DNA of 64,000 bases from Betaproteobacteria bacterium (GTDB lineage: Bacteria > Pseudomonadota > Gammaproteobacteria > Burkholderiales > Burkholderiaceae_C): the NCBI GenBank assembly GCA_025358155.1, contig JANYKR010000012.1, positions 1-64,000 of the forward strand, given 5' to 3'. Both the position numbers and the translations under genes were made by a program. Below, piece by piece: positions 19,807 to 24,061 of the stretch; positions within the stretch are counted from its first letter, which is position 1; every line of letters begins with the position of its first letter. The notes under the pieces were generated by a model. That model saw only the letters and a program-made list of their open reading frames with translations, made no database searches and was not told where the DNA came from.

Positions 19807-21722
19807 TCAACGCTTGGTGGTGATGTCGTCGGCGAGCTTGGCGATGAAGTCGCTCAACGGCATCACGCCAAGGTCGAGATTGCCCCGGGCGCGCACGGCA
19901 ATGGCCCCGCTTGCCTTTTCCTTGTCGCCAGCGACCAGGATGTACGGAACCTTTTGCAACGAATGCTCTCGGATTTTATACGTGATTTTCTCGTTGCGCA
20001 AATCGGCCTGAACTCTAAGCCCTTGTTTTTGCAGCGTTTTCACCACTTCAGCCGCGTACTCGGCCTGCGAATCGGTGATATTGGCCACCACCACCTGCAC
20101 CGGCGCCAACCAGGCCGGCATGGCGCCTGCGTGCTGCTCGATCAGAATGCCGATGAAGCGCTCCAGACTGCCGACGATGGCGCGGTGCAGCATCATCGGC
20201 GTGGCGCGCTCGCTGGCCTCGTTGACAAAGTGCGCGCCCAGTCGCTCGGGCATGTTGGGATCAACCTGGATCGTGCCGCATTGCCACTCTCGGCCGATCG
20301 CGTCTTTCAGCGTGTACTCGATCTTCGGGCCGTAAAACGCGCCCTCGCCGGGTGAGACGATGAAGTCGCAATTCGACCGGCGCAGGCTCTCCATCAGGGC
20401 GAACTCTGCCTTGTCCCACAGGGCATCTGAGCCGATGCGGGCGTCTGGCCGGGTGGCCACCTTGTAGATGATCTCGGTGAATCCGAAGTCTTGGTAGACC
20501 TTTTGCAGCAGCGCGGTGAAGGCGGCGCATTCTTCGAGCACCTGCTCTTCGGTGCAAAAAATATGGCCGTCGTCCTGGGTGAAGCCGCGCACCCGCATGA
20601 TGCCGTGCAGGCCGCCAGTGGGCTCGTTACGGTGGCACTGGCCAAACTCGCCGTAGCGCAGCGGCAGGTCGCGGTAGCTCTTGAGGCCTTGCTTGAAGAT
20701 CAGGATGTGGCCGGGGCAGTTCATGGGCTTGAGCGCGTAGTCCCGCTTTTCGCTCTCGGTCGTGAACATGTTGTCGCGGTACTTGTCCCAGTGACCGGTC
20801 TTCTCCCAGAGCGTCTTGTCCAGCAACTGCGGGCCCTTGACCTCCAGGTAGCCGTTGTCGCGGTACACCGCCCGCATGTACTGCTCGACGCCCTGCCACA
20901 CGGTCCAGCCCTTGGGGTGCCAGAACACCATGCCGGGCGCATGTTCGTCGGTGTGGAACAGATCGAGTTCACGCCCAAGCCGGCGGTGGTCGCGCTTCTC
21001 GGCCTCCTCCAACTGGGTCAGGTAGTGGGCCAGATCGTCCTTGCTGGCCCACGCCGTGCCGTAGATGCGCTGCAGTTGCTCATTGGCCTGGTCGCCACGC
21101 CAATAGGCGCCGGCCACCTTCATCAGCTTGAAGTGTTTGAGCTTGCCGGTTGAGGGCACGTGCGGGCCGCGGCACAGGTCCTCGAACGTGCCTTCGCGGT
21201 AGAGACCTCCTGCCCGGCCGGGATGCTGGCGATCAGTTCGGCCTTGTAGTGCTCGCCCAGGCCGGTGAAGTAGGCCACCGCCTCGTCGCGGGGCAGCACG
21301 CGGCGCAGCACCGGCTCGTCCTTCTTGGCCAGCGCCGTCATGCGGGCCTCGATCGCCACCAGGTCCTCGGGTGTGAAGGGCCGCTTGTAGGCAAAGTCGT
21401 AATAAAAACCGTTGTCGATCACCGGGCCGATCGTGACCTGGGCTTCCGGGAACAACGCCTTGACTGCGTAAGCCAGCAAGTGGGCGGTGGAGTGGCGGAT
21501 CAGTTCCAGCCCGTCGGCACCCTTGTCGGTGACGATGGCCAAGGACTCGTCGGCGTCGATCAGGTAGCTGGTGTCGACCAGGCGCGAGGCCTCACCGAGG
21601 CCCACCCGGCCGCCCAATGCAGCCTTGGCCAGGCCAGCGCCGATGGACGCGGCCACCTGGGCCACAGTGACGGGTTGTGCAAATTCACGTTTCGAAGCAT
21701 CGGGCAGCGTGATCGTGATCAT
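19807..21722 (-). pseudogene. thrS: Threonyl-tRNA synthetase, frameshifted as given
   Basis: Two overlapping frames together encode a full ThrRS. The upstream frame (from 21722) gives the TGS domain ([20 protein letters not shown]) and the HxxxH editing domain ([20 protein letters not shown]). The downstream frame, ending at 19807, gives the class II catalytic core ([20 protein letters not shown]) and anticodon-binding domain. The break is at 21202-21203, where the conserved ...[14 protein letters not shown]... reads GQEVS then jumps frame at YREGTFED. Between the Val and Tyr codons only two bases remain instead of six. Restoring four bases gives 639 residues, the normal size. Because thrS is essential, an assembly or sequencing error is the simplest explanation; a true mutant would need another ThrRS copy. 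Expression appears to be controlled by a leader peptide and terminator upstream. Confidence 0.9.
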
Positions 21723-21756: not shown

Positions 21757-21784
21757 ACAAAAAAGCGCGGGGGGCGCCGCGCTT
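21757..21784 (-). terminator. Intrinsic terminator in the thrS leader (candidate attenuator)
   Basis: On the minus strand AAGCGCGG and CCGCGCTT form an 8-bp GC-rich stem with a 6-base loop and a run of six T. It is 35 bases upstream of the thrS start and 46 bases after the stop of a Thr-rich 15-codon frame, with no complete gene ending before it. That position is expected for a transcription attenuator. A second 6-bp hairpin (TGTTCG/CGAACA, 21789-21811) lies just upstream. Confidence 0.85.
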
Positions 21785-21830
21785 GGTGTGTTCGAAGGAA
21801 AAGGACGAACAGGCGTGGCAGCGTGGCCGC

Positions 21831-21878
21831 TCAGGCGGTGGCACTGAAGACCGGTGTAGTTCGCGGTGTCATAACCAT
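21831..21878 (-). CDS. Threonine-rich leader peptide of thrS
   Basis: A 15-codon reading frame encoding MVMTPRTTPVFSATA. Four of fifteen residues are Thr, including adjacent ACT ACA codons. A strong AGGAAGG ribosome site stands at the right distance before the ATG. It begins about 30 bases after the predicted transcription start, and a terminator follows 46 bases after its stop, before thrS. This is the layout of amino-acid leader-peptide attenuation: ribosome stalling at Thr codons when charged tRNA-Thr is scarce would favour read-through into thrS. No antiterminator pairing could be defined with confidence by eye. E. coli thrS is instead controlled by translational operator binding, so this would be a different mechanism. 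Confidence 0.75.
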   Translation of the reverse strand: MVMTPRTTPVFSATA

Positions 21879-21915
21879 GGTGCCTTCCTCGCTCTTGTGG
21901 GTCAAAGAGCGCCGG

Positions 21916-21944
21916 ATTGTAGCGGCGCGGCCACGGGCCGTCAG
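21916..21944 (-). promoter_or_regulatory. Predicted sigma-70 promoter of the thrS-infC-pheST operon
   Basis: On the minus strand the -35 is CTGACG (21939-21944) and the -10 is TACAAT (21916-21921), with a 17-base spacer. Transcription would begin near 21909, about 30 bases before the Thr-rich leader peptide. Confidence 0.65.
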
Positions 21945-22114: not shown

Positions 22115-22378
22115 TTACAGCGCCTGAGGCTCGGTGGTGTCGCTGGTGGGCAGGACCACGGCCGTGACGTCGATGGCTTCTCGCGTCTCGGACTGGTTCT
22201 GGTTCAAGACGTTGAGGTAATCCACCGTACCGGCAATCGACTGGGTGGCCGAATCGGGTACCGCTGCCAACGGGTCGGCCACGGCGGGCGCGTCACTGCT
22301 GTCATCGCCCCAGCAGCCTGCCAAGGCCAGCGGGATGGCGGCCAGCGCCAGCCAGGTTGAGATTCGTGTCTTTGTCAT
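22115..22378 (-). CDS. Small lipoprotein, function unknown
   Basis: An 87-residue protein with a lipoprotein signal: MTKTRISTWLALAAIPLALAG followed by the lipobox cysteine (LALAGC). The mature part is acidic and Ala/Asp-rich (GDDSSDAPAVADPLAAVPDS) with no recognised domain. It starts 20 bases after the DUF4331 gene and is followed by a terminator, so the two form an operon. It may be an envelope partner of the DUF4331 protein; there is no direct evidence of function. Confidence 0.75.
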   Translation of the reverse strand: MTKTRISTWLALAAIPLALAGCWGDDSSDAPAVADPLAAVPDSATQSIAGTVDYLNVLNQNQSETREAIDVTAVVLPTSDTTEPQAL

Positions 22379-22398: not shown

Positions 22399-23922
22399 TC
22401 AGCGGGTGCCGCCGATCGGCGTGAACAGGTACGGGAATGCGCTCAACAAAGGTACCTGCGCCTGGTCCACCGCGTCATGCAGCTTGAGCGAGGTTGCGCC
22501 CAACGGCACCGCCGACGGCTTGCAGGCAGCGCCCATTGCCAGCGCGTTGTTGTCGCCGTTGGCCATGCACAGCCCGCCCATCACCGCGGCCAGCGACACG
22601 TCCACCACATCATCCTTGGGGCGGCGGCCGTTCGGGAAGCCGGCCAGGTCACCGCCCAGCACACCCAGGCGATTTTGTTTGCCTTCTGCAGTCGCGGCAA
22701 TGCTGGTGTTCAGGCGCAGCATTTCAGCGCCCACCACACCGGCAGGCTGGTTCACACCCTTGATGCCGGTCAGGAAGGCAGCGACCAGGTCGGTACGCGG
22801 GAAGTTGGTTGGCGCGATATTCGGTGCGCCGAGCGCGATCTCCAGCAGCGCCGGCAGCGACGGATTGGTCACGTAGTCGGCAAACTGGCCGTCGTCCTTG
22901 GGCTTGCTGCCGTTGAAGCGGTCCTTGTCTGGCAGACCAATCACTACCTCATTGACCAACGGCATCCCCAGCCTTGAAACCTGCACCCAGGCGCCGCCCG
23001 CTTTGGCAGTGGTCTGGTGGCCCTTGGCTGGCACCGGGTTGAGCAGCTGGCCCTGGCGCAAGCTGGCCGTGGTCCAGCCGCCGATCACCGGTTCGGTGCC
23101 TGAGGTCAGGCAGCTGGCATGAACCTCCAGGGCCAGTGTGGTGACGTTCTTGTCGTCGAGGGTATTGGGCGCGGCATTGATCAGCGTCGGGTCGGTGATG
23201 ACCGACACCGGGGCGTTGACGAGATCAAAAATCGTACCCAGGTTGACCGCAAACGGATCCTTGCGCTGGCCCACAAAAACCCGGGCCGGCATCGCGCAGC
23301 CGGGGATGTTGACGGTGTAGATGTGCTTTGCGGCATAGCCGGCGTAGTCTGGCAAGGTCTTCTTGCCGATGTTGTCGACCGGCTTGTCGAAGGTGGCCGC
23401 GCCGCCGCTGGCGTTGGTCACCGACGAGCGGGTGCCGCTGCGGCGGTCACCGCGCACCACATCGAGCGTGAAGCTCTCGTTGACGTTGAGGGTTGCTGCC
23501 TTGACGTCGGTCACAGCGCCAAACTGAATCAGTGGGATCGGGATGTCCTTGCCGCTGATCGACAGGGTCTTGGACTTGAGGGTGTTCTTGAAACGGAACT
23601 GAAAGCTCAAGTCTTCTTTGGCGTCGCCGTTGTTGTCGATATGGATTTCGTACAGCGCGTTCGGGTCGAGCGAGAAGTAGTTCGGGCCGCCGTAGCCATC
23701 TTGCAGCGGCAGGTAGTTGGCGAGCAGCGTGACATAACCGGCGCGGCCTGGCTCGTAGCTGGCAAACATGTAGAAGTCGGCGCCATCGACCTTGGGTTGG
23801 GTGGTGATGTAAGGCGCCTCGCGGTGGCTGGAGGCCTGGGCGACGGGCAATGCACCGGCGAGTGCCAGCACGGCTGCAGCCACGGGCAAGAGATGGGCAG
23901 CACAGTTGCGTTGAAAAGTCAT
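22399..23922 (-). CDS. DUF4331 family secreted protein
   Basis: A 507-residue exported protein of the DUF4331 family. The signal peptide MTFQRNCAAHLLPVAAAVLA ends near AQA-SS, directly followed by the family's SSHREAPYITTQPKVDGADFY motif. Further signatures are NGDAKEDLSFQFRF, VFVGQRKDPFAVNLG and RLGMPLVNEVVIGLPDKDRF. The C-terminus has GRRPKDDVVDVSLAAVMGGL. Function is unknown; members are often extracellular or periplasmic and encoded near sigma-factor or TPR genes. The start has a good AAGGAG ribosome site. The lipoprotein gene is co-oriented downstream. Confidence 0.9.
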   Translation of the reverse strand: MTFQRNCAAHLLPVAAAVLALAGALPVAQASSHREAPYITTQPKVDGADFYMFASYEPGRAGYVTLLANYLPLQDGYGGPNYFSLDPNALYEIHIDNNGDAKEDLSFQFRFKNTLKSKTLSISGKDIPIPLIQFGAVTDVKAATLNVNESFTLDVVRGDRRSGTRSSVTNASGGAATFDKPVDNIGKKTLPDYAGYAAKHIYTVNIPGCAMPARVFVGQRKDPFAVNLGTIFDLVNAPVSVITDPTLINAAPNTLDDKNVTTLALEVHASCLTSGTEPVIGGWTTASLRQGQLLNPVPAKGHQTTAKAGGAWVQVSRLGMPLVNEVVIGLPDKDRFNGSKPKDDGQFADYVTNPSLPALLEIALGAPNIAPTNFPRTDLVAAFLTGIKGVNQPAGVVGAEMLRLNTSIAATAEGKQNRLGVLGGDLAGFPNGRRPKDDVVDVSLAAVMGGLCMANGDNNALAMGAACKPSAVPLGATSLKLHDAVDQAQVPLLSAFPYLFTPIGGTR

Positions 23923-24061
23923 TGGAATCTCCTTGAGGGTTGGGGCAGACACCGAGCCATTTCAATGCGCCCGCCGTCCTGACAATGGTTACGCAGGGCA
24001 GCTCAGTGTGGATGCAAGCCAATGCGGCGTCGTGCTGCAGGACAGCACCTACAACCCAAGG

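Follow-up and report, generated by a model that had tools for sequence, protein, structure and literature searches.

A threonine-codon leader and terminator ahead of thrS in Burkholderiales, a candidate ribosome-mediated attenuator

Results

The leader of thrS in the window, by which we mean the whole stretch of 64,000 nucleotides of betaproteobacterial DNA that was analysed, is probably a ribosome-mediated transcription attenuator that answers to charged tRNA-Thr, as judged from sequence comparison. The comparison of related leaders supports a short frame, its start, its enrichment in Thr codons, the terminator behind it and the promoter motif ahead of it, and, in the set of leaders that bear a conserved core, an excess of pairing of the linker both with segment 1 and with the 5′ arm of the terminator.

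In the mechanism that we propose, RNA polymerase would start near 21909, a position taken from the −10 hexamer, and transcribe the leader, on which a ribosome would initiate MTPRTT... at the inner of two ATG codons. When charged tRNA-Thr is short, the ribosome would stall at Thr codons 5-6, right after a CGA codon, and would therefore cover the ribosome-binding site and the first codons (segment 1). With segment 1 masked, the linker (segment 2) would be free to pair with segment 3, the 5′ arm of the terminator, letting transcription proceed into thrS. When Thr-tRNA is ample, the ribosome would move on and segment 1 would sequester segment 2; the terminator (3:4) would then form and transcription would end near 21757. 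We infer that the frame is translated, that the ribosome stalls and antitermination ensues according to the supply of Thr-tRNA, and that the copy in the window remains functional.

Organisation of the leader

All leader elements lie on the minus strand between 21944 and 21757, upstream of thrS. Sequence inspection gave a sigma-70-like promoter (9/12) with the −35 hexamer CTGACG at 21939..21944 and the −10 hexamer TACAAT at 21916..21921, separated by a 17-nt spacer; the shuffle mean for the promoter was 0.0 in the 801-base region and 0.6 in the 5.4-kb region. The −10 hexamer is located 49 nt ahead of the leader start, and the Shine-Dalgarno sequence AGGAAGG of the leader, which belongs to segment 1 in relatives, is found at 21883..21889. 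The leader peptide frame, as placed by comparison of relatives, runs from the inner ATG through MTPRTTPVFSATA to its stop codon (21831..21872) and contains at 21858..21863 the Arg-Thr dicodon CGA-ACT, the element common to the leaders of other families. Between frame and gene we found the best match to segment 2 (21819..21827), which pairs weakly and with interruptions to the 5′ arm of the terminator (−8.3 kcal/mol, z +0.5), a GTTCG...CGAAC linker hairpin (21790..21810), seen by eye here and in several close relatives, and the intrinsic terminator (21757..21784), with a stem of 8 pairs at 21784-21763 (−12.7 kcal/mol) and six T at 21764-21759. In the wider region, terminator-like sites are frequent by chance (8 vs 5.7 expected; 4 vs 0.9 in the 801-base region), and the folding of the 201-nt stretch with the leader was ordinary (z −1.09), the z-score of the whole leader being uninformative. 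The ATG of thrS is at 21722; the 5′ part of the gene (TGS domain) occupies 21123..21722 and the remainder, with the class II core and anticodon-binding domains, 19807..21159, both on the minus strand. Behind thrS follow infC, rpmI, rplT and pheS.

The first-pass annotation had reported a promoter, the AGGAAGG, a Thr-rich frame and a stem with six T ahead of thrS, and this arrangement is real; the start of the frame, which had been placed at the outer ATG, did not stand. Read from the outer ATG (21878), the frame encodes MVMTPRTTPVFSATA followed by a stop, with the Thr codons ACA, ACT, ACA and ACC. In 157 core-bearing leaders, the outer codon was ATG in 31, CTG in 35, TTG in 18 and a non-start codon in the others, whereas the inner codon (21872) was ATG in 151, GTG in 4 and CTG in 2. 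Because the inner codon is nearly always ATG and the outer one mostly not, we take the inner ATG as the conserved start. A TANRAT hexamer was present upstream in 94 of the 135 core-bearing leaders with enough upstream DNA, compared to 8.8 in mononucleotide shuffles (max 16), and its commonest distance to the start was 49-50 nt, as in the window. The short frame with its Shine-Dalgarno sequence before thrS, conserved in start position and in frame, has the form expected of a leader peptide, and its translation is predicted.

Conservation among relatives

As the core we defined GGTTNTGACACCGCGAACT and its close variants. When 30 thrS loci were fetched by the thrS N-terminus alone, with the leader unused (the best 30 of 53 matching genomes; 60 searched), the core was found upstream of thrS in 26, the window counted in. 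Two of the other loci, L030 and L004 from the window's own genus, have diverged frames, and by eye L027 and L029 have none. In L004, the MTPRTT core appears by eye to be replaced by MVSTLRIILFNPDT, and its terminator has a changed 5′ arm.

An exact 21-mer scan of one genome per species (84,980 species) returned at least 119 stretches. Among the matches listed, 118 of 119 sit upstream of thrS and the last, L111, runs off its contig; the NCBI names are 47 Comamonadaceae, 36 Oxalobacteraceae, 10 Sphaerotilaceae and 7 Burkholderiaceae, the remaining matches listed carrying less precise names, with one labelled Alphaproteobacteria. The nearest relative of the window thrS among the matches listed is Paucibacter (84%). 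An exact 17-mer searched in 369 genomes was found in 0 of the 365 from other orders of the class; its 3 matches were all within the order, of which one more member was without it. A 13-base core is present a single time in the genome of the window. With up to 2 mismatches, 66 of 399 genomes of the order matched (the listing was counted as 25 exact and 21 one-mismatch), a tally that we do not use as a frequency because a reversed-pattern control also matches often.

In total, 194 loci had a core match. L111 and L127 were left out, the latter because the script had picked another site, yet this locus is also thrS, leaving 192 for examination. Without L137, which has no called terminator, 191 remained, and these were reduced by k-mer similarity to the 157 distinct leaders. 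Conservation of the core within the 157 is largely a result of selection, because 89 came from the exact-core scan and most of the remainder from the search with the core pattern; its codons are nearly fixed there (ACA in 156/157, CGA in 149/157). Both are rare codons, ACA occurring 6 and CGA 13 times among the 3176 codons of seven window genes.

Leader-peptide attenuators are expected to be rich in codons for their cognate amino acid, and such an excess was observed for Thr. From codon 7 on, the 157 leaders contain 189 Thr codons compared to 81.8 ± 8.5 in composition-preserving shuffles (max 103, 200 shuffles). Thr stands at codon 7 in 73/157, with ACC, ACG, ACT and ACA all in use, and codon 6 is Thr in 39/68 when only leaders without selection on codon 6 are counted. 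Each leader has 2-7 Thr, and 15 of the 157 have just two. A conserved Thr-rich frame, which the first-pass annotation had suggested looking for, is there in both respects, in the 26 of 30 thrS-fetched loci and in the codon counts. Loss of the Thr codons or of the terminator in relatives, named in the same annotation as an outcome against attenuation, was also looked for and is absent in the core-bearing group.

Terminator and alternative pairings

An intrinsic terminator between frame and gene was observed throughout: a hairpin with a T run was called in 191 of the 192 core-bearing leaders examined. In the 157 leaders, the linker pairs better than its shuffled versions do, both with segment 1 (22% at p ≤ 0.05, mean z −1.03) and with the 5′ arm of the terminator (18% at p ≤ 0.05, mean z −0.77); because the leaders are related, these z means are non-independent tests. 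The best sites for segment 1 and for the arm on the linker overlap by at least 3 nt in 82% of the 157. For the Shine-Dalgarno region with the linker the mean z was −0.67 (n 156), with controls at −0.22 (upstream) and +0.14 (later frame).

We also folded the RNA up to the terminator 5′ arm in three ribosome states: stalled at codon 5, at the stop codon, and free. Mean pairing of the arm with upstream RNA was 0.597 with the ribosome stalled at codon 5 and 0.461 without a ribosome. The stalled value exceeded the free value by more than 0.2 in 58 of the 157 leaders and was lower in 9, compared to 18-26 and 12-22 in twelve shuffled sets. Stalled and stop-codon states gave a weaker contrast (42 and 5; shuffles 21-35 and 10-20). 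RNAalifold on a first MAFFT alignment returned the terminator and one 4-bp hairpin only, a small yield because segment 2 differs between groups.

For the pairing that attenuation calls for, overlapping alternatives are thus present on average in the core-bearing group, but none is clear in the window's own copy. Its segment 1:linker pairing has z +0.9 beside the linker:arm value given above, no alternative pairing was detectable, and the pairing probability was 0.60-0.62 in every ribosome state. By eye, the window linker departs from close relatives in the would-be pairing segment.

Leaders in other families

Up to 430 nt of DNA upstream of thrS was collected from 130 genomes of 50 other families of the order, and from four genomes of other orders. 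In 31 of the 130 regions, and in 18 of the 50 families, we found a short leader that carries CGA-AC[T/G] (Arg-Thr) in frame; these counts are not fully independent because some genomes are close relatives. Of these leaders 27 were found by script (16 families) and four by eye (L329, L335, L323 and L251; families f20 and f49), so that 19 families are obtained from the 16, f20, f49 and f1. Script and eye found no Arg-Thr leader in the other 99 of the 130 regions, and several leader-bearing families also include genomes without one. Variants with Arg changed to Leu (MTPLT and similar) in f3, f10 and f23 were excluded from the count. Examples of the leaders are MFKRTTTTRISR, MSFRTTTTGTLNLG, MAVRTTTTHP, MQRTSTKTITYLG, MTLRTCTKH, MFRTCTTTWC and MPRTSTFGRFHHRRG.

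The hexamer CGA-AC[T/G] occurs 42 times in these regions, compared to a shuffle mean of 13.8 (max 24). Pairs of ATG and CGA 3-18 nt apart are in frame in 31 cases and out of frame in 7, with about one per frame in shuffles. These data bear on the possibility that the leader RNA chiefly provides a site for ThrRS to bind, with the frame secondary. Such a site would resemble the autoregulation of E. coli thrS through an operator, and nucleotides near the start are indeed conserved beyond the codons, for example GTT directly ahead of the start in 155 of the 157 core-bearing leaders (a set largely fetched by its core). Across families, however, little beyond CGA-AC[T/G] is kept, and it is kept in frame with a nearby ATG; Thr is enriched at varied codons, and the terminator ahead of thrS is conserved in the core-bearing set. 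We therefore regard a ThrRS site as an unlikely explanation.

Counting any codons, and nested starts apart, we found 37 Arg-Thr dipeptides in early codons of short ATG frames, 33 of which are CGA-ACT or CGA-ACG; the remaining four are CGC-ACT, CGC-ACC, CGC-ACA and CGA-ACA. This matters for another explanation, in which MTPRT acts as a nascent-chain arrest peptide that senses something besides Thr-tRNA. MTPRT is close to invariant in the core group, although that set was largely chosen by its core, and the leaders with only two Thr would also fit an arrest peptide. Between families, the residues flanking Arg-Thr vary (MFKRTTTT, MSFRTTTT, MAVRTTTT, MQRTSTKT) while the codons stay CGA and ACT or ACG, which indicates that the codons, not the peptide, are conserved. 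Together with the Thr enrichment, this makes an arrest peptide improbable, and attenuation by Thr-codon stalling is the reading that we retain.

In the 31 leaders, pairing of the Shine-Dalgarno region with the linker had a mean z of −1.05 (9/31 at p ≤ 0.05; controls −0.30 to −0.39), and its partner site usually lies right before the terminator, so that the frame is enclosed. The terminator stem varies with pairing kept, its fifth pair from the base being TA, GC, AT, CG or TG as compared without a formal alignment. Linker:arm pairing in these 31 leaders was at shuffle level (z −0.05), so that support for an antiterminator is confined to the core-bearing group. Arm pairing was 0.509 in the stalled state, within the shuffles (0.428-0.540), and 0.467 in the free state, below every shuffle (0.492-0.600). 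RNA pairing as the sole cause of the constancy of CGAAC was rejected, GTTCG being present in only 7 of the 31 linkers.

CGA is read by inosine wobble. A fixed CGA ahead of the sensing Thr codon was unexpected, and it may serve as a sensitiser. We tentatively suggest, as a possibility and not as the favoured outcome, that one order has, in at least 19 families, a class of thrS attenuators whose sensing Thr codon stands directly behind a rare CGA near the start. With CGA in its P site, the ribosome would be slowed or destabilised, so that a mild shortage of Thr-tRNA would already stall it at ACT or ACG; the ribosome-binding site would be segment 1, and the class may derive from a tRNA-Val terminator. 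If true, the fixed CGA before the sensing codon would be a design rule at codon level.

In L271, from another order (f63), the DNA ahead of thrS has by eye an MSTTTAQR frame and behind it a terminator-like hairpin, which together may be a Thr leader of independent origin.

The upstream tRNA-Val gene

A tRNA-Val gene lies upstream of thrS in 91 of the 130 other-family regions and in 43 of the 50 families, with anticodon GAC in the loci inspected for it, and 24 of the 27 scripted Arg-Thr leaders sit behind it. It is also upstream in L270 (another order) and, in seven Cupriavidus loci, upstream of the leader; L204/L230 and L306 have tRNA-Asp instead. For Cupriavidus metallidurans, Table 2 of PMC9045368 lists a promoter for Rmet_R0015 under the gene name thrS, presumably the tRNA gene ahead of thrS. 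In L240 and L344 (f24), a linker TGGTAG before the terminator is complementary, by duplex prediction, to the CTACCA 3′ end of tRNA-Val; L188, L190, L191 and L258 (f47) also have this linker, with the complementarity judged by eye.

A further explanation is that the terminator is a plain one, left over from the tRNA-Val gene found ahead of thrS in most families, and that the frame arose by chance; 67 of the 91 regions with tRNA-Val are without a scripted Arg-Thr leader. Against this, the frame and its start, the promoter motif and the Thr codons persist in lineages in which no tRNA-Val was found at the locus, and we hold a mere relic to be highly improbable.

In a rapidly built thrS tree (55 rows), the leader families were clustered (8 changes vs 15.9 in shuffles; 0/500 as low), and several early branches have tRNA-Val and a plain terminator. 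Conversion of a tRNA-Val terminator into the proposed attenuator is only a lead, because the tree labels are per family and some tips' own genomes are without a leader, the four outgroup rows do not group on a single side and 18 of the 52 inner branches have weak support. It would be a possible case of an attenuator grown from the terminator of a tRNA gene.

Extent of control and comparison with known systems

The first-pass annotation had proposed that charged tRNA-Thr controls the whole thrS-infC-rpmI-rplT-pheST operon by attenuation. The conserved frame, the Thr enrichment, the terminator and the pairings in the core group speak for attenuation, but its reach to pheST is unsupported, because an 11-pair terminator-like hairpin with a T run (18362-18334) separates rplT from pheS and, for C. 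metallidurans, section 6 and Table 2 of PMC9045368 list infC and rpmI with separate start sites. Inspection of the rplT-pheS gap by eye showed no Phe-rich frame.

In E. coli, pheST belongs to the same gene cluster as thrS and is preceded by pheM, a leader-peptide attenuator sensing Phe. It is alike in being leader-peptide attenuation of an aminoacyl-tRNA synthetase operon and differs in its place before pheST and in its amino acid. E. coli thrS itself has no leader peptide and is autoregulated via a translational, protein-binding operator; gene and autogenous logic are the same, whereas the control proposed here is transcriptional. The leader thrL of E. coli thrABC, which we take to be Rfam RF00506 (Thr_leader), likewise uses Thr-codon attenuation but controls biosynthesis genes. 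T-boxes of Firmicutes thrS also sense Thr-tRNA charging and control a terminator, but bind the tRNA directly. Rfam covariance models, applied at the gathering cut-off and at E-values of up to 10, returned no relevant hit in the leader, with no T-box or RF00506 match, and the short frame lay outside the curated RNA families searched.

For Streptomyces lividans, PMC8079986 proposes a Thr leader peptide, thrL (MKRVRPFLETTPGFVPAR), upstream of thrS, on a leaderless transcript that is described there as having no clear U-rich terminator. A proposed Thr leader peptide ahead of thrS is common to both, and by eye the peptide as given there has no resemblance to the window leader. The literature searched contained no report of a thrS leader of this kind in Betaproteobacteria. 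If the proposed attenuation is true, many Betaproteobacteria would control thrS transcriptionally through the ribosome, in contrast to the translational operator of E. coli.

Finally, the thrS frame of the window breaks near 21201-21204, where two frames with a 4-nt overlap align to one relative's protein, as if 4 nt had been lost through an assembly error or a mutation. The window's genome has no second full thrS match; one other match is weak (26% identity). On the far side of the leader, 22115-22378 encodes a protein of 87 aa that has no Pfam match and whose start looks lipoprotein-like by eye; it lies beside a DUF4331 protein (22399-23952), and a terminator-like site follows at 22062-22045.
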